Assembly (NCBI GenBank): GCA_913057775.1
Contig: CAJXOG010000004.1
Coordinates: 62,001-126,000 of the forward strand
Length of the DNA: 64,000 nucleotides
Reading direction: 5' to 3'
Source: an uncultured Fodinibius sp.
Lineage (GTDB): Bacteria; Bacteroidota; Rhodothermia; Balneolales; Balneolaceae
Every line of letters starts with the position of its first letter. Within the stretch, counting starts at the first letter, position 1. Both the position numbers and the translations under genes were made by a program. The notes beneath the pieces were generated by a model. It was not told the DNA's origin, made no database searches, and saw nothing but the letters and a program-made list of their open reading frames with translations. Positions 11,927 through 21,657 of the stretch are shown piece by piece.

Positions 11927-12115
11927 CTAAAGTTCTTCCAGAAAATTCACTGCTTTGGCTTTACGAATAGAAGTTAGGAGGGTACTAACTTGCTTATAGA
12001 GTTTTCGGTCGTGCTCGCAGGCTTTTTTGATAAACTTTTCTTGTTCCTGTTGATCTGACAAAGTCAGTGCTTTATCCACAATTGATTCTATATTTTTCCA
12101 CCGTTGCTGATCCAT
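11927..12115 (-). pseudogene. N-terminal fragment of a Ser/Thr kinase paralogue (62 residues)
   Basis: A 62-residue frame that matches only the first ~60 residues of the large kinase at 18512-21076. Both begin MDQQRWK, continue with an I..IVD.AL.LS segment, and end NFLEEL or NFLEDL just where the kinase passes into its linker. The stop is clean and a purine-rich AAAGGAGA lies upstream, so it could still be translated. No kinase catalytic residues are present. It is either the stump of a deleted second kinase or a small stand-alone copy of the N-terminal module. It is divergent from the collagen-like lipoprotein gene. Confidence 0.6.
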
Positions 12116-12220
12116 AAAAAAGCAGAATATCTCCTTTCCCTTTTATTAGTACATGCGAAAGCCAAATGAAAAATGGGCCAAATAAATAGAGATAGGGCGC
12201 TATTTTTCAAATAGGATGGA

Positions 12221-12262
12221 TTTGTCACCATTTCGCTCACTGTTTCGCATGATGCTATGTAG
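12221..12262 (+). promoter_or_regulatory. Shared 42-base promoter-like element, copy 1
   Basis: The first of four 42-base blocks. It begins TTTGTCACCATTTCG and ends CTATGTAG, 33 bases before the start codon of the collagen-like lipoprotein. It is read as an ECF-type promoter with -35 TTGTCAC and -10 CGCAT 17 bases apart; the conserved CTATGTA would be at or near the transcription start. Confidence 0.7.
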
Positions 12263-12295
12263 CATTCATTAATTCCAAAAAAAGAAGCAAAAACT

Positions 12296-13165
12296 ATGCA
12301 ACGAATAACACGAATAGCGACGTTACTTTTAGTTTGTTCCATGACCATTTTTATGGCCTGTGAAGGTCCCTCTGGTTCAGAAGGTCCGCAGGGACCCGAA
12401 GGACCGCAGGGCCCCGTTGGACCGGCCGGTGAGGACGGCAGCATGATGTATTCCGGGCAGGGTGCCCCTGATGCTAGCATTGGCGAAAACGGTGATTATT
12501 ACCTGGATACAGATACCGGTGAATTGTATGGTCCCAAAGATGACAGCGGCTGGGGTAATCCTATCATAGTACTCCAAGGAGAAGATGGGGAAGACGGCAG
12601 TCAGATTCATGCTGGCAGTGGTGCCCCTGATGCTTCGTTAGGGGATCTGGGCGATTTTTACCTGGATCAAGCCAATTACGATATGTATGGCCCCAAAACA
12701 GAAAACGGTTGGGGAACTCCGATTAACCTGAAAGGGGCCGACGGTAATGCCAATGTAACGCGGTATATCTTTCCTGAGCATGATTTTAGCAGCAATTCTT
12801 CGGTAACACATAGTATTGGAGGGATAACAAATAATGAATTCCTAGAAAGTGCCTGGTTAGTTTATTTAGCTAATGACAGAGGTACAATTAATTCTACTTT
12901 TAGATACTATGCGGTTCCAACCGAAGGAGTGAATGATGGATCTTCTTATTCGGTCAGCTTTGGAAATGTTAACGACCGGCAAGCCTATTTCTACTTCACC
13001 TCGTCAGGATCACCTAAAACCACATATGAACGTATCGAGATTGTTCGTATTGAGGCTTCCAATACCGAAGATCAAACCAAGCAGAAATCAGGAGAAATTC
13101 TTCCCAGTGGACTAGATACCTCCGATTACAAAGCGGTAGCAGAATATTATGGCTTCTATCGATAA
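12296..13165 (+). CDS. Collagen-like lipoprotein with GAPD repeats
   Basis: A 289-residue lipoprotein. The signal peptide ends in a lipobox, FMAC (Cys22). A short collagen-type run of GPxG triplets follows (residues ~24-44), then two copies of a ~45-residue unit with GAPDASxGxxGDxYLD and MYGPK/LYGPK...GWGxP (about 54-98 and 102-146), then a GADGNANVTRY junction and a C-terminal beta-rich domain of about 140 residues that I do not recognise. The architecture suggests a surface-exposed fibre- or stalk-like protein. It has the shared promoter element upstream and a strong terminator downstream, so it is monocistronic. Its partner is unknown. Confidence 0.8.
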   Translation: MQRITRIATLLLVCSMTIFMACEGPSGSEGPQGPEGPQGPVGPAGEDGSMMYSGQGAPDASIGENGDYYLDTDTGELYGPKDDSGWGNPIIVLQGEDGEDGSQIHAGSGAPDASLGDLGDFYLDQANYDMYGPKTENGWGTPINLKGADGNANVTRYIFPEHDFSSNSSVTHSIGGITNNEFLESAWLVYLANDRGTINSTFRYYAVPTEGVNDGSSYSVSFGNVNDRQAYFYFTSSGSPKTTYERIEIVRIEASNTEDQTKQKSGEILPSGLDTSDYKAVAEYYGFYR

Positions 13166-13203
13166 CTAAAATCCGGAGAGAGTACTTTCATAGATAGCTT
13201 TAA

Positions 13204-13240
13204 AAAAATGGGCTCTGCTGAAAAGGCAGGGCCCATTTTT
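13204..13240. terminator. Rho-independent terminator after the collagen-like gene
   Basis: A near-perfect 16-base stem (13204-13219 and 13225-13240) with GGGCTCTGCT/GGCAGGGCCC core, a GAAAA loop, and flanking A- and T-runs. It separates the collagen-like gene from the next promoter element. Confidence 0.9.
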
Positions 13241-13284
13241 AGTTTCTTCATCTTTTCAAGGATTGACAAATTGTACAAAATTAA

Positions 13285-13326
13285 TTTGTCCTCATCCCGC
13301 CCGCCGTTACGCATGTTACTATGTAG
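13285..13326 (+). promoter_or_regulatory. Shared 42-base promoter-like element, copy 2
   Basis: Same length and layout as the other copies, beginning TTTGTCCTCATCCCG, with GTTACGCATG in the middle and CTATGTAG at the end, 31 bases before the ATG at 13358. It is the most divergent copy in the spacer but keeps the TTTGTC, GTTACGCAT and CTATGTA blocks. Confidence 0.7.
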
Positions 13327-13357
13327 AAGAAAAAGAATAGCAATAAACTATAGAATT

Positions 13358-14668
13358 ATGAGGCGCTTACTACAAATATCGACCCTGTTTATTGCACTGG
13401 GACTTCTAATATCGTGCGGAAGTGATAGTAGTACTACCGGTCCTGATTCGGAACCAGAGCCCACCACTGGATCCGTTGAAATTACGACCTCTACCAACGG
13501 TGATGACCAGGATGATGGTTATGAGGTTTTGGTTGACAGTACAACGCAGGGTATCGGGGCCAATGAAACTATAACAGTATCCAATCTGGATGAAGGGGAG
13601 TATGAAGTAGAGCTCTCTAATATTGCAGAAAACTGTGAGGTAGACCAGGAGAATCCACAAAATGTAACTGTTAAAGCTGGCAATACGGTGTCTACACAGT
13701 TTGAGATCGGGTGTCAGGCAAAAACAACTCCTCAGATTATTTTTGAAGGAGTGGGAGAAGAAGCTGAGAACATAGAAATTTATGCAACGGATTCTAATGG
13801 TTCGAATATTTTGAATTTGACCGAACATTCTGCAATGGATAAAAATCCCGTTTGGTCGCCTGATGGCAGCAAAATTGCTTTTGAATCTGACCGCTCAGGA
13901 CAGGTGACAGATATATATGTTATGGACGCAGACGGATCGAATCAGACACGGTTGACAAGCAGCGGTGCTGATGATTTTAGTCCGGCATGGTCACCGAATG
14001 GAGATAAGATCGCCTTTGTTTCGGAGCGGGATGGTACTGAAATTTATGTAATGAATGCAGATGGTACCAATCAGAACCGGTTAACAAATAATAATAGGCG
14101 AGATGATGAACCACTATGGTCGCCGGATGGCAGTCAAATCGCTTTTCGCACAAACCGCGATGGAAATGAAGAGATCTACGTGATGGATTCGAATGGTACC
14201 AATGAAGAGCGATTAACAAACTATGGTTTAGATGATTGCTGTGCGGATTGGTCGCCCAATGGAAATAAAATTGTTTACACTTCTTTTCGTGATGGCAGTC
14301 CCGGAGATTATGAAATCTATCGGATGGATACGGATGGATCTGATAAAATGAATCTCAGTGATCATACTGATCATGACCGTTCTCCAGTGTATTCTCCGGA
14401 TGGGACAAGAATTGCTTTTATTCCGGATAGAGATGGTCCCACGGAACTTTATGTAATGAACGAAGATGGGTCTAACCAGACGCGGTTGACAATGGACAGA
14501 ACAGTGTTGGGAGTTCCTGCGTGGTCGTCCAATGGCAATAAACTTATCTATGTGGGCCGCTATGAAAGTGACCGGTCCATTTTTGTTATAAATGAGGACG
14601 GCACAAATGAAACGGTGTTAACTGCTGAACTTGATTTGGCTGAGAAACCCGCTTGGCGTCCCAACTAA
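13358..14668 (+). CDS. Lipoprotein with PEGA-like domain and TolB-type beta-propeller (paralogue 1)
   Basis: A 436-residue lipoprotein. The frame is open further upstream, but that part runs through the terminator and promoter element, so the ATG at 13358 (MRRLLQ) is the start. It has a signal peptide with lipobox LISC (Cys22), an acidic/threonine linker, and a PEGA-like domain (~38-125: DDQDDGYEVLVD, GIGANETITVSNL, NPQNVTV). A TolB/PD40 propeller follows with about seven IY.MDADGSN..RLT / WSPDGSKIAF.SDRDG units. Such propellers usually bind proteins or peptidoglycan-associated partners. It is one of three paralogues in a row, each with its own promoter element. Confidence 0.85.
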   Translation: MRRLLQISTLFIALGLLISCGSDSSTTGPDSEPEPTTGSVEITTSTNGDDQDDGYEVLVDSTTQGIGANETITVSNLDEGEYEVELSNIAENCEVDQENPQNVTVKAGNTVSTQFEIGCQAKTTPQIIFEGVGEEAENIEIYATDSNGSNILNLTEHSAMDKNPVWSPDGSKIAFESDRSGQVTDIYVMDADGSNQTRLTSSGADDFSPAWSPNGDKIAFVSERDGTEIYVMNADGTNQNRLTNNNRRDDEPLWSPDGSQIAFRTNRDGNEEIYVMDSNGTNEERLTNYGLDDCCADWSPNGNKIVYTSFRDGSPGDYEIYRMDTDGSDKMNLSDHTDHDRSPVYSPDGTRIAFIPDRDGPTELYVMNEDGSNQTRLTMDRTVLGVPAWSSNGNKLIYVGRYESDRSIFVINEDGTNETVLTAELDLAEKPAWRPN

Positions 14669-14783
14669 TTTTCTTTTAGAGACAAGCTGGAATTTTTTAA
14701 AATGAGTGATATTAAAGTCTAGAAGAGTCTCATAATTTTTGCTCACAGCTGCATTATTCTGCTGTGGACTTGTGTAAATTGAA

Positions 14784-14825
14784 TTTGTCACCATTTCGTT
14801 AACTGTTACGCATGTTACTATGTAC
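14784..14825 (+). promoter_or_regulatory. Shared 42-base promoter-like element, copy 3
   Basis: Begins TTTGTCACCATTTCG, contains CTGTTACGCATGTTA and ends CTATGTAC, 31 bases before the ATG at 14857. From GTTACGCATG to CTATGTA it is identical to copy 2. Confidence 0.7.
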
Positions 14826-14856
14826 AAACCGGAATGAATAGTAAAAGCATAAAAAC

Positions 14857-16029
14857 ATGAGGCGCTTACTACAAATAACGACGCTGTTCATTGTAATAGG
14901 ACTACTAATATCTTGTGGAAGCGATAGTAATACCACCGGTCCTGATTCGGAACCAGAGCCCACCACCGGATCCGTTGAAATTACCACTTCTACCAGCGGC
15001 GATGATCAGGATGACGGTTATGAGATTTCGGTTGATGGTACAACGCAGGGTATCGGGGCCAATGAAACCGTAACAGTATCAGACCTGCAGGAAGGTAGCT
15101 ATGACGCTGAATTGACTGATATTTCCGAGAATTGTGTGGTGGATGGGGATAATCCGCGCAGTGTCGATATTACGGTGGGTGAGACGACCTCAACGTCCTT
15201 TAATATTACTTGCGAATCCGCAGCAAATGGGAAGATTGCCTTCATAAGCGATCGGGGTGAGAGCGAAGATATTTTTCTGATGGACGCCGATGGCTCATCG
15301 CCCACCAACCTAACCACGAACACGGATTATGATGGACTCGCAGCTATTTCCCACGACGGGAACCGAATTGCTTTTGTCAGTGATCGGAGTGGTTCTCATG
15401 GCTTATATGTGATGGATATTGACGGATCAAACGTGCAGCTAATTAAGTCCGGATTATCGAATGCTTACTTTGCGCCCAGCTGGTCGCCGGATGATTCCAA
15501 GCTGGCTTTTGTTGATGAATCAGGTGGGGATACAGAAATTTATACTATCGGCATCGACGGCAACAATGAACAACAGCTAACCAATAATAGTGCTGACGAT
15601 TATTACACGGATTGGTCTCCGGACGGTTCAAAAATTCTATACAACAGTGATACCGACGGTGATCAAGAGCTCTATACCGTAAATCCTGATGGATCTGACC
15701 GTCAGCGAGTAACAGAGAATTCCGATGCTGATTACGATGGGCGATGGTCGCCGGAGGGCTCGAAGATTGCCTTTGTCAGTGATCGGTCCGGGAACGATGA
15801 AATATATACCATAAATTCCGATGGGTCGGACGTCCAACAGGTAACAGACAATAGTGCTAGTGATATCGCCCCGACGTGGTCACCTGACGGAACCGAAATT
15901 GCCTTTAGAAGCAGGCGCGATGGTAATGGGGAAATATATAAGATGGCCGCTGATGGCAGCGGGTCGCCGGTCAACCTGACAGAGAACATCGCTTCCGATT
16001 CAAATCCTCACTGGAGAAAGGTAGAATAG
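14857..16029 (+). CDS. Lipoprotein with PEGA-like domain and TolB-type beta-propeller (paralogue 2)
   Basis: A 390-residue paralogue of the preceding gene. The first ~240 bases are very similar in DNA as well as protein: same MRRLLQI start, LISCGSDS lipobox, PDSEPEPTTGSVEITTST linker and PEGA-like domain. The propeller part is more divergent and has six units (for example EIYTINSDGSDVQQVT and WSPEGSKIAFVSDRSG). The protein ends directly after the last unit (NPHWRKVE). Expected location is the periplasm or the outer membrane. It has its own promoter element, so the three paralogues need not form one operon. Confidence 0.85.
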   Translation: MRRLLQITTLFIVIGLLISCGSDSNTTGPDSEPEPTTGSVEITTSTSGDDQDDGYEISVDGTTQGIGANETVTVSDLQEGSYDAELTDISENCVVDGDNPRSVDITVGETTSTSFNITCESAANGKIAFISDRGESEDIFLMDADGSSPTNLTTNTDYDGLAAISHDGNRIAFVSDRSGSHGLYVMDIDGSNVQLIKSGLSNAYFAPSWSPDDSKLAFVDESGGDTEIYTIGIDGNNEQQLTNNSADDYYTDWSPDGSKILYNSDTDGDQELYTVNPDGSDRQRVTENSDADYDGRWSPEGSKIAFVSDRSGNDEIYTINSDGSDVQQVTDNSASDIAPTWSPDGTEIAFRSRRDGNGEIYKMAADGSGSPVNLTENIASDSNPHWRKVE

Positions 16030-16056
16030 TATGTGCAATTAAGTAGTGGGTTTTTA

Positions 16057-16098
16057 TTTGTCACCATTTCGCTCGCCGTTACGCATCATACTATGTAG
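16057..16098 (+). promoter_or_regulatory. Shared 42-base promoter-like element, copy 4
   Basis: Begins TTTGTCACCATTTCG, contains GCCGTTACGCATCATA and ends CTATGTAG, 30 bases before the ATG at 16129. It begins only 27 bases after the preceding gene's stop. Confidence 0.7.
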
Positions 16099-16128: not shown

Positions 16129-18279
16129 ATGCGACGATTTTTAATCACACTTTGTATTCCGATTATTGCGCTATCATTAATTTCCTGCGATGATGAATCT
16201 ACCGGTGAAGAGGAACCGCAGCCCTTAGAGTTTACAACGGAACCCTCTGATGGATTAAGTACCATGATTCAAGAAACACCCAGCGACTTTACCTGGGATT
16301 ACTATAACGATAATGTTATGGTGAATATGATCCCTGGTGCTCGATGGAGTGGTGAAATTGCTCTTTCAGGTTTTCAGGTAGAAAATGGGGAAGTGGTTAA
16401 CCGCACTACCACAGAGCCGGTTGAAACCACTGCTGATGAGCTTTCGGCCGGTCTCTCTACCGAAGAGATGTTTCCGGGTTCAAAATGGGTGCCGGGGAAT
16501 TCGTGGGTGCCGGGAAATTCATGGGTGCCGGGGAATTCGTGGGTTCCAGGAAATTCATGGACCCCTTCCGAAATTGAGAATGCTGCATTGTCAGAGTTTG
16601 ATCTCAGCCAGAACGAAACATTGGTAGTCGTTTATGCTCAACTTGCCGGGGAATCGCCCGGACGTGAACAGACTACCCAGCCGTTTGGGATTCTGATGAA
16701 AGAGGAATCAGAGTCGTTGGCATTTACGACAGAGCCCTCCGACGGGTTGAGCAACATGATCCAGGAAACGCCCAGCGACTTTACCTGGGATTATTATAAC
16801 GACAATGTTATGGTAAACATGGTACCTGGATCTCAATGGAGTGGTGACATTGCTCTTTCAGCCTTTCAGGTAGAAAATGGGGAAGTGGTTAACCGCACTA
16901 CTACAGATCCAGTTGAAACCACTGCTGATGAGCTTTCGGCTGGCCTTTCCACAGAAGAGATGTTTCCGGGATCCGAATGGTTTCCAGGCTCTGAATGGAT
17001 TCCGGGTTCCGACTGGTTCCCGGGTTCTGAATGGATTCCCGGTACTGACTGGACCCCCTCAGAAATTGAAAATGTTGCCCTGTCGGAGGTTGATCTGGGC
17101 CAGAATGAGTCGCTCGTGGTCGTTTATGCCCAACTTGCCGGGGAATCGCCCGAACGTGAGCAGACCACCCAACCGTTTGGCGTGCTGATGATGAAAGAGG
17201 AAACAACTGGAACGCTGGAAGTGACTACAACTACAAGTGGCGATAATCAAGATGACGGTTATGAAGTGTTAGTTGACGGAACAACTAACAGTATTGGAGC
17301 TAATGAAACGATAAATATCTCTGATCTGTCAGAGGGAGATTATGAGGTAGAACTAACCGATGTAGCTGATAACTGTGGAGTAGGCGGTGATAACCCACGA
17401 AATGTTACCATTACTGCTGACCAGACAACATCAACAACTTTTGAAGTTACTTGCCAGCAGCCCATGAAGAACGCACTGGCCTTTACCAGTTACCGCGAAG
17501 GCAATGGGGATATTTTTACGATTGGAGATGATGGCTCCGGCGTTAACCAGCTTACCACTAACGGTGAATTTGATGGCCAAGCTGCCGTTTCGCCAAATGG
17601 TACGAAAATTGCTTTCACCAGTGAGCGTGATGGCGACAAGGAGATCTTTGTGATGAACACCGATGGAAGCAACGTCAATCAGTTGACCAACAACAATGAA
17701 CTGGATGAGCATCCCGCTTGGTCTCCTGATGGCAGTGAAATTGTCTTTAGCAGTACCAGAGACGGTGTGGAGGAAATCTACACCATGAACGCTGATGGCA
17801 CGAGCATAAGCCGGGTTACGAATAATTCCCAGGCCGATCTCAATCCGAACTGGTCGCCCGGCGGCAACGAGATTGTCTTTGAAAGCCTGCGTGACAACAA
17901 CCGGGAGATTGTCGTCATAAACACCGATGGTTCCGGAGAAACGCGCCTGACCAACAATGCCATCGAGGATGCTAATCCGGTTTGGTCGCCTGACGGTTCA
18001 GAAATCGCTTTTCATGGGAAACGACAGGGAGAAGGTGATCAGGATATTTATACCATGGATGCTGACGGCAACAACGTTACCCAAGTTACAAGTAACAGCA
18101 ATTTCTATGATATATCACCAACCTGGTCGGCTGATGGCAGTCAGATAGCCTTCGAAAGCAACAGAGAGGGCTCTGGCGGAAGTGATATTTATAAGATTAA
18201 TGCAGACGGTACTTCGCCGGTCCGTATTACTACAAGCAGTGCCTTCGAAGAGCATCCATCATGGAGTCCGTTAGAATAA
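16129..18279 (+). CDS. Large lipoprotein: duplicated Trp-rich repeat module, PEGA-like domain and TolB-type propeller (paralogue 3)
   Basis: A 716-residue lipoprotein with lipobox LISC (Cys20). Two consecutive ~164-residue modules (about 33-196 and 197-358) each carry TTEPSDGLS.MIQETPSDFTW at the front, a stretch of six-residue W-[VFI]-P-G-[NS]-x repeats in the middle, and VVYAQLAGESP.REQTTQPFG at the end. Next come a PEGA-like domain (~361-445) and a six-unit TolB/PD40 propeller to the C terminus (EEHPSWSPLE). The PEGA and propeller parts match the two preceding genes; the duplicated module is unique to this one, and I know no family for it. It is followed by a terminator. Confidence 0.85.
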   Translation: MRRFLITLCIPIIALSLISCDDESTGEEEPQPLEFTTEPSDGLSTMIQETPSDFTWDYYNDNVMVNMIPGARWSGEIALSGFQVENGEVVNRTTTEPVETTADELSAGLSTEEMFPGSKWVPGNSWVPGNSWVPGNSWVPGNSWTPSEIENAALSEFDLSQNETLVVVYAQLAGESPGREQTTQPFGILMKEESESLAFTTEPSDGLSNMIQETPSDFTWDYYNDNVMVNMVPGSQWSGDIALSAFQVENGEVVNRTTTDPVETTADELSAGLSTEEMFPGSEWFPGSEWIPGSDWFPGSEWIPGTDWTPSEIENVALSEVDLGQNESLVVVYAQLAGESPEREQTTQPFGVLMMKEETTGTLEVTTTTSGDNQDDGYEVLVDGTTNSIGANETINISDLSEGDYEVELTDVADNCGVGGDNPRNVTITADQTTSTTFEVTCQQPMKNALAFTSYREGNGDIFTIGDDGSGVNQLTTNGEFDGQAAVSPNGTKIAFTSERDGDKEIFVMNTDGSNVNQLTNNNELDEHPAWSPDGSEIVFSSTRDGVEEIYTMNADGTSISRVTNNSQADLNPNWSPGGNEIVFESLRDNNREIVVINTDGSGETRLTNNAIEDANPVWSPDGSEIAFHGKRQGEGDQDIYTMDADGNNVTQVTSNSNFYDISPTWSADGSQIAFESNREGSGGSDIYKINADGTSPVRITTSSAFEEHPSWSPLE
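16486..16557 (+). repeat. Four 18-base repeats coding WVPGNS
   Basis: Four adjacent 18-base units (TGGGTGCCGGGGAATTCG-type) encode WVPGNS four times, with only third-position changes between units. Such an array can expand or shrink by slippage. Confidence 0.9.
16978..17049 (+). repeat. Four 18-base repeats coding W[FI]PG[ST][ED]
   Basis: The counterpart array in the second module: WFPGSE, WIPGSD, WFPGSE, WIPGTD. The period is the same as in the first array but the consensus is acidic and alternates F and I, so each array seems to have homogenised independently. Confidence 0.9.
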
Positions 18280-18511: not shown

Positions 18512-21076
18512 CTATTTTAAAAGCCTCTTATAATCTGCCACTATTTTTTTATCGACTCCCGCCTGCTGGTAAATTCGTATGATACGATTGATATCTGCGG
18601 AAGTGCTTTTACTGAGATTTGAGCTATGCTTTTCATAAAATTGGTAGTGGTGCTTTTTAAGCGAATCGGTTTCTTTGATTGGTGTATTATCTTGCAGCAT
18701 AAGGCTGGCGGTAAGTAGGCCTTCGGCGTACGCTGTTCGAAGATCATCAGTCCCCCGAATATTTCTATTTATTTGAACGCTTTCTCTAATATATGGTTCA
18801 GCTTTTTCAAATTTCTGTTGTAGCATCAAAAAAACGCTCATAATATTTATCGTCGATACAGTTTGGGTGTGATTCGTACCAAATCGCTGACGCGCTGCAT
18901 TAATATTCTCTTCAAGAAGTTTTGTTGCCTCCTCATAGTTTTTCTGAAAATATAGATTGGTTGCCAGGTTTCTGCGCGCCATTATTGTTTCAGGATGCCC
19001 ACTTCCATTGATTGCTTTTATCAATCGGATTGATGTTCTATAGCTTTCGGTTGCTTTTTTATGGTTTTCCTGCACTCTATACAGATACCCTAAGTTCTGA
19101 TAGTATCCGGCTAACATATTCAAGCGGTTTGTACTGTCCTGTTTAGCTCTCGATATAGCCTTTACATAAAGTGATTCAGCCTTGGCATATTCTTCTTTTT
19201 TTCGAAGGACGTAACCCAATTCTACCATTGTATTTAAAACACTGGGATGAGTTTTAGACAACAGATTTTGCTGAATACTGAGTGCTTTACGCGCGTATAT
19301 TTCAGCTGAATCAATTTTGCCAACATCGCGCATTGCTGAGGCCATATTAGCAAGCACCATTGCAGTATTTTGATCTTCCATGCCGTGAATGGAAAGATTA
19401 ATCTGATAGGCCTTTCGAAAGAAGGGTAAAGCCTTTTTAAAATTATATTGTTTGACGTACCAATGTCCTAGCCGGTTAAGAGCGGTTGCATGTTCAGAAC
19501 TCTGTATTCCGTGTAGAGTTTTACTCGTCTGCACGGCCTTTTGCAACAATGGAAGGGCACTGTCATAATCACCGATATTCGTATGAGCTTGTCCGATAAC
19601 TGATAGCATATTCGCATAACCGGGTTCTCCTTTGAGTCTTTTGGCCTCTTTAGCACCCTGTCGTAATACATCACGGACTTGTAAAGTGTCTTTGGCTGCT
19701 TCCAAATCAAATAATCCAAGGATAAATTGGGATACCTGCTGGGCTTTCTCCGCTTGAATTTGCGCCTGATTACGTTCTTTGGAGATCTGCAAGGTATAGA
19801 AAGTGGCAAAACCAATAATCAGGAGAAAAAATCCGGCGGCAACACTAATCCCATATTTATGTCTTTTGACAAATTTGCCTATTGTATAACGAACAGTATC
19901 CTTCCGCGCCACCAGGGGCAGATTCTTCTTTAGTCGTTCTAAGTCTACCAGTAGTTTTTCGGCTGATGGGTATCGTGCTTCAGGTTCTTTGCGCAAAGCT
20001 TTCATCACGATGGCGTCCAGATCGCCCTGCAGTTTTTGAGCCAGGTCTTCAGGAGATAAATTTCGTGAGTTGGCTATTTTTTCTTTTCGATTAACAAGCA
20101 AGCTTTGAAAGCGATCTGAGGGTTTATCCGGAGATTTTTGTCGGATAAGTTGTTCAATGTCGGTAAAACTTTTTTCATCCATATCAAAGGGATGAACGCC
20201 GGCCAACAATTCGTATAAAAGAATACCCAGTGTATAAATATCTGTGTGGGTTGTAATAGATTCTTTTTTGATTTGCTCGGGAGCCGCGTAGCCGAGCGTT
20301 AGAATACGTGCACCGGTTTGCGTTTCAAAGAGTTGGGTATTAGGATCTTCGGGCTCCAAAAGTTTTGCAATGCCGAAATCAAGAATTTTTACTTGTCCAT
20401 TTGGGGTCACCAGAATATTGGAGGGTTTCAAATCGCGATGGATAATCGCATTGTTATGGGCGTGATGTACCGCTTCACAAATAGATTTAAAGAGCTCCAG
20501 ACGCTTATCTATAGATAACCTATTATCATCACAATAATTGTAAAGCGGCGTGCCCTCCACATATTCCATCACTAGGTATGGCAGTCCCTCGTCCGTCATG
20601 CCGCCGTCTAGCAGTCGGGCAATATTTGGATGATTGAGCTTGGCCAGAATGTTCCGCTCACGCTTAAATCGGGCGATATTTGACGGCGTATCCATGCCGC
20701 GCCGCATGAGCTTTAAGGCTACTTTCTGCTCGTAAGCCTGATCCGCGCGTTCGGCCAGAAAAACCGATCCCATGCCACCGTGACCAATAAGCTCGATAAG
20801 TTTATAATTGTCGATGGTAGTTCCGATGAGGGAAGAAGTGTTCTCTCCAATTTCGTTTCGTGATATCTCATGAGCAAGCTGGGTATAATCTCCGAGATCC
20901 TCTAAAAAATTTTCTGTATCGGATTGCTCGATTGAGGCAACTAGTTCGGTGACCTCTCGCTTGAGTTGTTTATTGTCCTTACATTTCTCTTGAATATAGC
21001 TTTCTCGTTCTTTTTCGCTAAGATCAAGGGCTGTATCTACGATGTTATTTATTTTCTTCCACCGTTGCTGATCCAT
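18512..21076 (-). CDS. Transmembrane Ser/Thr protein kinase with C-terminal TPR domain
   Basis: An 854-residue kinase. Residues 1-60 form the small helical MDQQRWK..NFLEDL module common before the kinase domain in ECF-linked kinases. The kinase domain spans ~90-385 with the GHGGMGSV glycine loop, K122 in VALKL, HRDLKPSN (213-220), DFG (233-235) and APEQ (265-268), so it should be active. A single membrane segment lies at about 409-430. The rest consists of about eight TPR units (for example AEIYARKALSIQQNLL). With the kinase inside, the TPR tail should lie in the periplasm. It is 17 bases downstream of the ECF sigma gene and surely cotranscribed with it. Kinase control of the sigma factor is known for some ECF-kinase pairs and is inferred here. 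Confidence 0.9.
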   Translation of the reverse strand: MDQQRWKKINNIVDTALDLSEKERESYIQEKCKDNKQLKREVTELVASIEQSDTENFLEDLGDYTQLAHEISRNEIGENTSSLIGTTIDNYKLIELIGHGGMGSVFLAERADQAYEQKVALKLMRRGMDTPSNIARFKRERNILAKLNHPNIARLLDGGMTDEGLPYLVMEYVEGTPLYNYCDDNRLSIDKRLELFKSICEAVHHAHNNAIIHRDLKPSNILVTPNGQVKILDFGIAKLLEPEDPNTQLFETQTGARILTLGYAAPEQIKKESITTHTDIYTLGILLYELLAGVHPFDMDEKSFTDIEQLIRQKSPDKPSDRFQSLLVNRKEKIANSRNLSPEDLAQKLQGDLDAIVMKALRKEPEARYPSAEKLLVDLERLKKNLPLVARKDTVRYTIGKFVKRHKYGISVAAGFFLLIIGFATFYTLQISKERNQAQIQAEKAQQVSQFILGLFDLEAAKDTLQVRDVLRQGAKEAKRLKGEPGYANMLSVIGQAHTNIGDYDSALPLLQKAVQTSKTLHGIQSSEHATALNRLGHWYVKQYNFKKALPFFRKAYQINLSIHGMEDQNTAMVLANMASAMRDVGKIDSAEIYARKALSIQQNLLSKTHPSVLNTMVELGYVLRKKEEYAKAESLYVKAISRAKQDSTNRLNMLAGYYQNLGYLYRVQENHKKATESYRTSIRLIKAINGSGHPETIMARRNLATNLYFQKNYEEATKLLEENINAARQRFGTNHTQTVSTINIMSVFLMLQQKFEKAEPYIRESVQINRNIRGTDDLRTAYAEGLLTASLMLQDNTPIKETDSLKKHHYQFYEKHSSNLSKSTSADINRIIRIYQQAGVDKKIVADYKRLLK

Positions 21077-21093: not shown

Positions 21094-21657
21094 TTATTCC
21101 TTTTTTAATTCCTTATAGAGCCATCCCCGGGCTTTGGCCCAGTCGCGCTTGACGGTACGTTCCGATACATCCAGCGCCTTGGCAGTCTGATAAATCGTCA
21201 TTTGTCCGAAATAACGAAGTGTTACCACTTCGGCCATGCGTTCATCCAGTTCGGCAAGTTCATCTAATTTTTCATCCAGATTGATAATTTCTTCAGACTC
21301 TTGACGTGCTTTTAATAATTTATCGATATAAGTAACCTCTTTTTGGTCGCCGCCACGTTTCTCGGCTTTCTTTTTTCGAGCGTGATCCACCAGAATTTGA
21401 CGCATGCAACGAGCCGCTATTGCTAAAAAGTGATTTTTATCATTGGCCTCAATACAGGTTTGGTCAACCATTTTTAGGTAAACTTCATGTACTAGCTCGG
21501 TTTCCGAAACCGTAATATCGTTGCGTTCTCCTTTGAGCTTGGAACATGCAAGGCCTTTCAACTCTTTATAAACAAGGGGGAAAAATTCTTCGTAAGCTTC
21601 TTCGGATCCCTTTTTTACCTCCATTAAGAGCCGGGTAACCTCTGATTTATTTCTCAT
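21094..21657 (-). CDS. ECF-type RNA polymerase sigma factor (kinase-linked type)
   Basis: A 187-residue sigma-70 family protein with only regions 2 and 4. Region 2 includes SETELVHEVYLKMVDQ and FLAIAARCMRQILVDHARKK; region 4 includes LDERMAEVVTLRYFGQMTIYQTAKALDVSERTVKRDW, with the helix-turn-helix in the last part. The VDHARKK signature places it with ECF factors often found beside Ser/Thr kinases (TIGR02999-like). No anti-sigma factor gene is next to it, which fits control by the kinase. Likely targets are the four lipoprotein genes carrying the shared element; no copy of that element was seen upstream of this gene itself. Confidence 0.9.
   Translation of the reverse strand: MRNKSEVTRLLMEVKKGSEEAYEEFFPLVYKELKGLACSKLKGERNDITVSETELVHEVYLKMVDQTCIEANDKNHFLAIAARCMRQILVDHARKKKAEKRGGDQKEVTYIDKLLKARQESEEIINLDEKLDELAELDERMAEVVTLRYFGQMTIYQTAKALDVSERTVKRDWAKARGWLYKELKKE

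Follow-up and report, generated by a model that had tools for sequence, protein, structure and literature searches.

The window analysed here, a stretch of 64,000 nucleotides from an uncultured Fodinibius species, carries a tandem array of four lipoprotein genes, each preceded by a copy of the same 42-bp block. A block repeated in this manner could be a promoter, a binding site for a regulator, or a by-product of gene duplication. We ask which of these readings the evidence favors, which protein would read the block, and which genes would respond.

Repeated blocks in the window

The four blocks are located on the forward strand at positions 12221–12262 (putative −35 element TTTGTCA, putative −10 element CGCAT), 13285–13326, 14784–14825 and 16057–16098. 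The first precedes a collagen-like lipoprotein gene (12296–13165) and the remaining three precede genes for PD40 beta-propeller lipoproteins, namely a PD40/TolB-like protein (13358–14668), a second propeller (14857–16029) and a large propeller with two N-terminal repeats (16129–18279), all on the forward strand. As described in the first-pass annotation, the blocks are of equal length, 28 of their 42 columns are invariant, and they end 33, 31, 31 and 30 nt before the respective ATG codons (12296, 13358, 14857 and 16129). We take ATG 13358 as the start of the second gene because a longer open reading frame from 13208 would take in the block and because 13358 agrees with the paralogue. Column 7 is A and not C in three of the four blocks. 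At 16460–17060 the fourth lipoprotein also contains a module that occurs twice in tandem and includes short repeats (VPGNSW..., FPGSEW...), possibly a fast-changing surface segment.

Genome-wide counts of these sites were obtained by pattern searches. The 29-letter block pattern has four matches in the window and none in 100 shuffles, and the full block pattern, with up to three mismatches, has four matches in the 3.11-Mb genome (none for the reversed-pattern control). The half-pattern GTTnCGCAT-CTATGTA, allowed three mismatches over the whole genome, has real matches only in the array and fewer matches in total than its control, and a relaxed degenerate pattern has no more matches across the genome than its control. 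A generic sigma-70 promoter scan gave output at chance level and did not pick up the blocks, and neither the window nor three sigma loci gave an Rfam match.

The genes form a tandem array and blocks 2 and 3 lie upstream of near-identical 5' gene ends, as would be expected if the block had no function and were either a small mobile repeat or a leftover from the duplication of genes in tandem. However, the block edges are sharp: each flanking bin of 10–20 columns, on both sides, contains 0–2 invariant columns compared to 28 of 42 inside, and pairwise identity among the four blocks drops to mostly near background in the flanks. Moreover, the core of the block is retained across species and before unrelated genes (a protease, a 62-aa protein and an unlinked lipoprotein), and we regard a functionless leftover as extremely improbable. 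The first-pass annotation had argued that the collagen-like gene shares almost nothing else with its neighbors; this is correct for the DNA flanks, yet collagen-like and propeller lipoproteins do co-occur in such arrays across species.

Core motif in related genomes

The full block is found in four of 92 genomes of the family, including the host genome; the three relatives among them carry it no more than about 7 kb from a homologous sigma factor gene. One copy, in genome G012, is upstream of an unrelated trypsin-like protease lipoprotein gene. The wider comparison drew on 23 sigma homologues from 12 species of the genus (Aliifodinibius group of the Balneolaceae), each taken as a 20-kb locus. 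A first matrix built from the initial eight blocks detected many weaker sites in these loci, and the iterated matrix yielded about 60 sites in the 23 loci and the window, with the consensus TTTGnCC-nnnTT-n13-CGCAT or, when the −10 variant is included, TTTGnCC-N18-CGCAT / CGTAT. Positions G4, C26 and G27 are nearly invariant among the 60 sites and much of the remaining 42 columns is weak. The 42-bp extent is particular to the window array and to a small number of close relatives.

The distance between the two boxes is strongly constrained: TTTGnCC and CGCA occur at a spacing of 18 in 30 matches, compared to about one match for each alternative spacing between 8 and 35. A start codon of a lipoprotein or mini-protein follows in 50 of the 60 sites, at a median of 32 nt past the block. 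As in ECF-type promoters, there are two conserved boxes at a fixed spacing, in a set orientation, just upstream of start codons. The ECF promoter that had been proposed from the window alone is retained in refined form, the core being TTTGnCC-N18-CGCAT and not TTGTCAC-N17-CGCAT.

At a score of at least 18 there are 56 sites in 460 kb of sigma loci compared to none in 400 kb of random loci (twenty 20-kb loci of the same genus), although the motif was partly sought near sigma genes and the training matrix is not independent of these counts. Independent tests are provided by held-out loci and by a matrix made from other species. Twenty held-out sigma loci from other genera contain eight sites compared to 0.1 for column-permuted matrices; the genus matrix detects no site in the majority of these loci, and where it does, an obvious lipoprotein start is mostly absent. 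The other-species matrix leaves out all sites identical to the window blocks in at least 30 of 42 positions. Matrix matches unrelated to gene starts at a background rate had been named beforehand as an outcome that would speak against a promoter; with this matrix, five window sites score 30.7–37.4 and the next best in 64 kb scores 12.0, so the ECF reading stands.

Four of these five sites are the blocks, and the fifth is a putative divergent promoter of the same kind (TTTGGCCCATTTTTCATTTGGCTTTCGCAT...) on the reverse strand at 12141–12182, which matches the core pattern exactly and scores 36.5 with the position-specific matrix and 37.4 with the other-species matrix. When one mismatch is allowed, the core pattern has 17 matches in the whole genome compared to three in the control. 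By matrix score and position six of the 17 are real, i.e., the four blocks, the divergent site and a site on another contig (C5:161724); the others lie inside long open reading frames and have low scores (17.8 at most). The initial count of four copies was therefore sound but missed two sites, the more diverged one at 12141–12182 and the one at C5:161724. The latter is upstream of an unlinked lipoprotein gene, whose apparent orthologue in genome G014 keeps the site. Sites on C5 of the host genome, on C22 of G011 and on C5 of G017 are far from any sigma gene of the TIGR02999 type, so linkage alone cannot account for them.

Alternatively, the block might be the operator of a repressor or activator protein that binds DNA, and the promoter might be located elsewhere. 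Conservation over 42 bp is long for an ECF promoter and columns 31–42 are kept in the window array, which would suit an operator. Against it, beyond the window array strong conservation is limited to the −35 and −10 columns, the two boxes have a rigid 18-nt spacing and a set orientation and distance to start codons, the block is not palindromic, and the divergent gene owns a copy on the opposite strand with none shared. We consider an operator very unlikely.

Some loci present variations on this arrangement. One sigma/kinase locus (L081:10737–19768) has five tandem lipoproteins with a nearly identical signal peptide (MRRLTALLT...) and a site detected before the first gene only. In three others (L070:14171–14500, L071:9740–10070 and L069:10381–10710) an ECF-promoter-like site beside a TIGR02999 sigma gene has no open reading frame after it; it is followed by a conserved, strongly structured stretch that ends in an intrinsic terminator, lies upstream of an agmatine deiminase-like gene and has no Rfam match, and we note it as a candidate sigma-dependent small RNA. 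Two further sites (L032:7425, reverse strand, and L063:6691, forward strand) have no gene after them; instead a hairpin with a T-run, which is clear in L032, follows at a distance of up to about 60 nt, and the sites could be remnants or promoters of very short transcripts.

Sigma factor and kinase

The proposed reader of the blocks is an ECF sigma factor encoded on the reverse strand at 21094–21657, adjoined by the gene of a Ser/Thr kinase with TPR repeats on the same strand (18512–21076). Both genes are convergent with the lipoprotein array and the sigma gene lies 5–9 kb from the blocks; a Hanks-type Ser/Thr kinase gene beside the sigma gene is present in the window as well as in the displayed homologous loci of the genus. 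The sigma factor scores 199.5 bits against TIGR02999 (cut-off 126) and 159.9 bits against PF07638, and it is the one protein of the genome over the TIGR02999 cut-off. A PDB search by sequence produced no meaningful match. The acidic motif DAED of region 2.2 is replaced by SETE-LVHE, where the Thr is invariant across 48 aligned homologues and two Glu are kept. Since SETE retains Glu, the sigma factor may not depend fully on phosphorylation. It could be a member of another STPK-linked group (ECF59, 61, 62 or 217) instead of ECF43 proper. No clear motif site is found upstream of the sigma operon, which seems not to be autoregulated via the motif. In Aliifodinibius salipaludis (L032:4679–7258) two open reading frames of 465 and 363 aa take the place of a single gene for the kinase beside the sigma gene, owing to real fission or to a sequencing error.

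A connection between this sigma family and the motif is suggested by their covariation. The sigma homologues comprise types with different recognition helices in region 4 (SERTVKRDW or SESTVKRDW); the sites closest to the first type are mostly TTTGTCC...CGCAT and those closest to the second mostly WWTGAGC...CGTAT. Site letters track the sigma clade with Fisher P values of 6e-5 (column 6) and 2e-6 (column 28), which overstate independence because sites within one array are related.

Could the block be a promoter of a different sigma factor? Primary-sigma promoters of Bacteroidota consist of the elements TTTG and TAnnTTTG. The TTTG of the blocks agrees with the −33 element of these promoters and is found at a similar distance, but the blocks have CGCAT, with a near-invariant CG, where TAnnTTTG would be located, and a promoter of this kind would be expected genome-wide, yet the random loci contain no site of the motif. 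The other candidate is ECF41, whose experimentally mapped promoters read TGTCACA-n16-CGTC (PMC3426412). Three window blocks contain TGTCAC and, as TGTCACC-n16-CGCA, have the same two-box geometry and equal spacing, but the −35 element in relatives is TTTGnCC or WWTGAGC, the sigma family is a different one, and the genome has no TIGR02957 (ECF41-type) sigma factor over the cut-off. We rejected an ECF41 regulon given the 187-aa sigma factor, which lacks a SnoaL-like C-terminal extension, and the consensus found across species. Taken together, a promoter of the primary sigma factor or of ECF41 is very unlikely indeed.

Standalone copies of the kinase N-terminal domain

The divergent site precedes a 62-aa open reading frame (11927–12115, reverse strand), which begins 25 nt after the site and is a standalone copy of the kinase N-terminal domain, to which it aligns from end to end. 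Such mini-proteins of 59–63 aa occur in 11 species, ten of them within the genus, and form one clade (support 0.84, midpoint root). Among ten pairs whose synonymous distance is usable, nine have a dN/dS ratio of 0.11–0.27 and one has a ratio of 0.74, so that the mini-protein appears to be mostly under purifying selection. The motif is found upstream of the genus mini-protein genes with a score of at least 24 in nine of ten cases and weakly (11.1) in the tenth; the copy in genome G067 has a site scoring 15.9, and in G011 and G017 the mini-protein genes with a motif are unlinked. The predicted model has three helices (mean pLDDT 82.9) and no clear fold match in the PDB, and searches of Pfam and NCBIfam gave no hit above cut-off. 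It is possible that the mini-protein acts as a kinase brake or as a sigma-binding partner, and a positive role is possible as well. That the sigma factor turns on the surface lipoproteins along with a free copy of the kinase N-terminal domain, acting as a decoy or a sigma-binding brake, is a tentative proposal to which we give slightly less than even odds. No such feedback by an N-terminal domain was found described in the available portions of the literature on kinase-controlled sigma factors.

Proposed mechanism and related systems

We conclude, with a probability of roughly 0.84, that the linked kinase-controlled ECF sigma factor (TIGR02999 type, ECF43-like) uses the blocks as its promoters, with a regulon that includes a probable feedback mini-protein. 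This reading starts from the observed motif, its spacing and placement, the linkage, the covariation with the sigma clade and the conservation of the mini-protein, and extends by inference to sigma–promoter binding, phosphorylation, the start site, membrane topology and feedback. The putative membrane kinase with its TPR domain, which is probably outside the membrane, would sense a cue and phosphorylate the invariant Thr of the S-x-T-x-LVHE motif, which replaces the usual acidic DAED in sigma region 2.2. The phosphorylated sigma factor would then be able to bind RNA polymerase, and the holoenzyme would read a −35 box TTTGnCC and a −10 box CGCAT, TTTGnCC and CGCA being separated by 18 nt. Based on the positions of the boxes, transcription would start near block columns 36–39 (TATG), giving a leader of about 35–40 nt. 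The regulon in the host genome would include the four tandem surface lipoproteins, one unlinked lipoprotein and the 62-aa protein, which would probably compete with the kinase for a partner (the sigma factor or the kinase dimer) and thus damp the response.

According to the accessible portions of the sources, the acidic DAED motif is missing from region 2.2 of ECF43 factors, and phosphorylation of a Thr at this place activates them (PMC8999054, PMC13147305); the region 2.2 motif is STTA in EcfP of the EcfP/PknT system of Vibrio parahaemolyticus (PMC8999054) and QATE, with additional sites in the linker, in EcfK of the EcfK/PknS system of Xanthomonas citri (PMC13147305). As far as these portions allow comparison, the window resembles both systems in having an ECF sigma gene beside a Hanks-type kinase and a region 2.2 in which the acidic motif is replaced and a Thr is conserved, and it resembles EcfK in retaining Glu beside the Thr. 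It differs from them in its regulon, which is a tandem lipoprotein array and not polymyxin resistance or T6SS genes, in the TPR repeats of the kinase, and in the inclusion of a standalone kinase-N-domain protein in the regulon. No promoter consensus for EcfP/PknT or EcfK/PknS was found in the accessible portions of the literature.

Reviews describe kinase-coupled sigma factors as only starting to be characterized. Our analysis proposes a promoter code for this sigma family and connects kinase/sigma switches in Balneolaceae with arrays of surface lipoproteins of the collagen-like and beta-propeller kinds, and the recurrent mini-protein offers a direct handle on the role of the uncharacterized kinase N-terminal domain.
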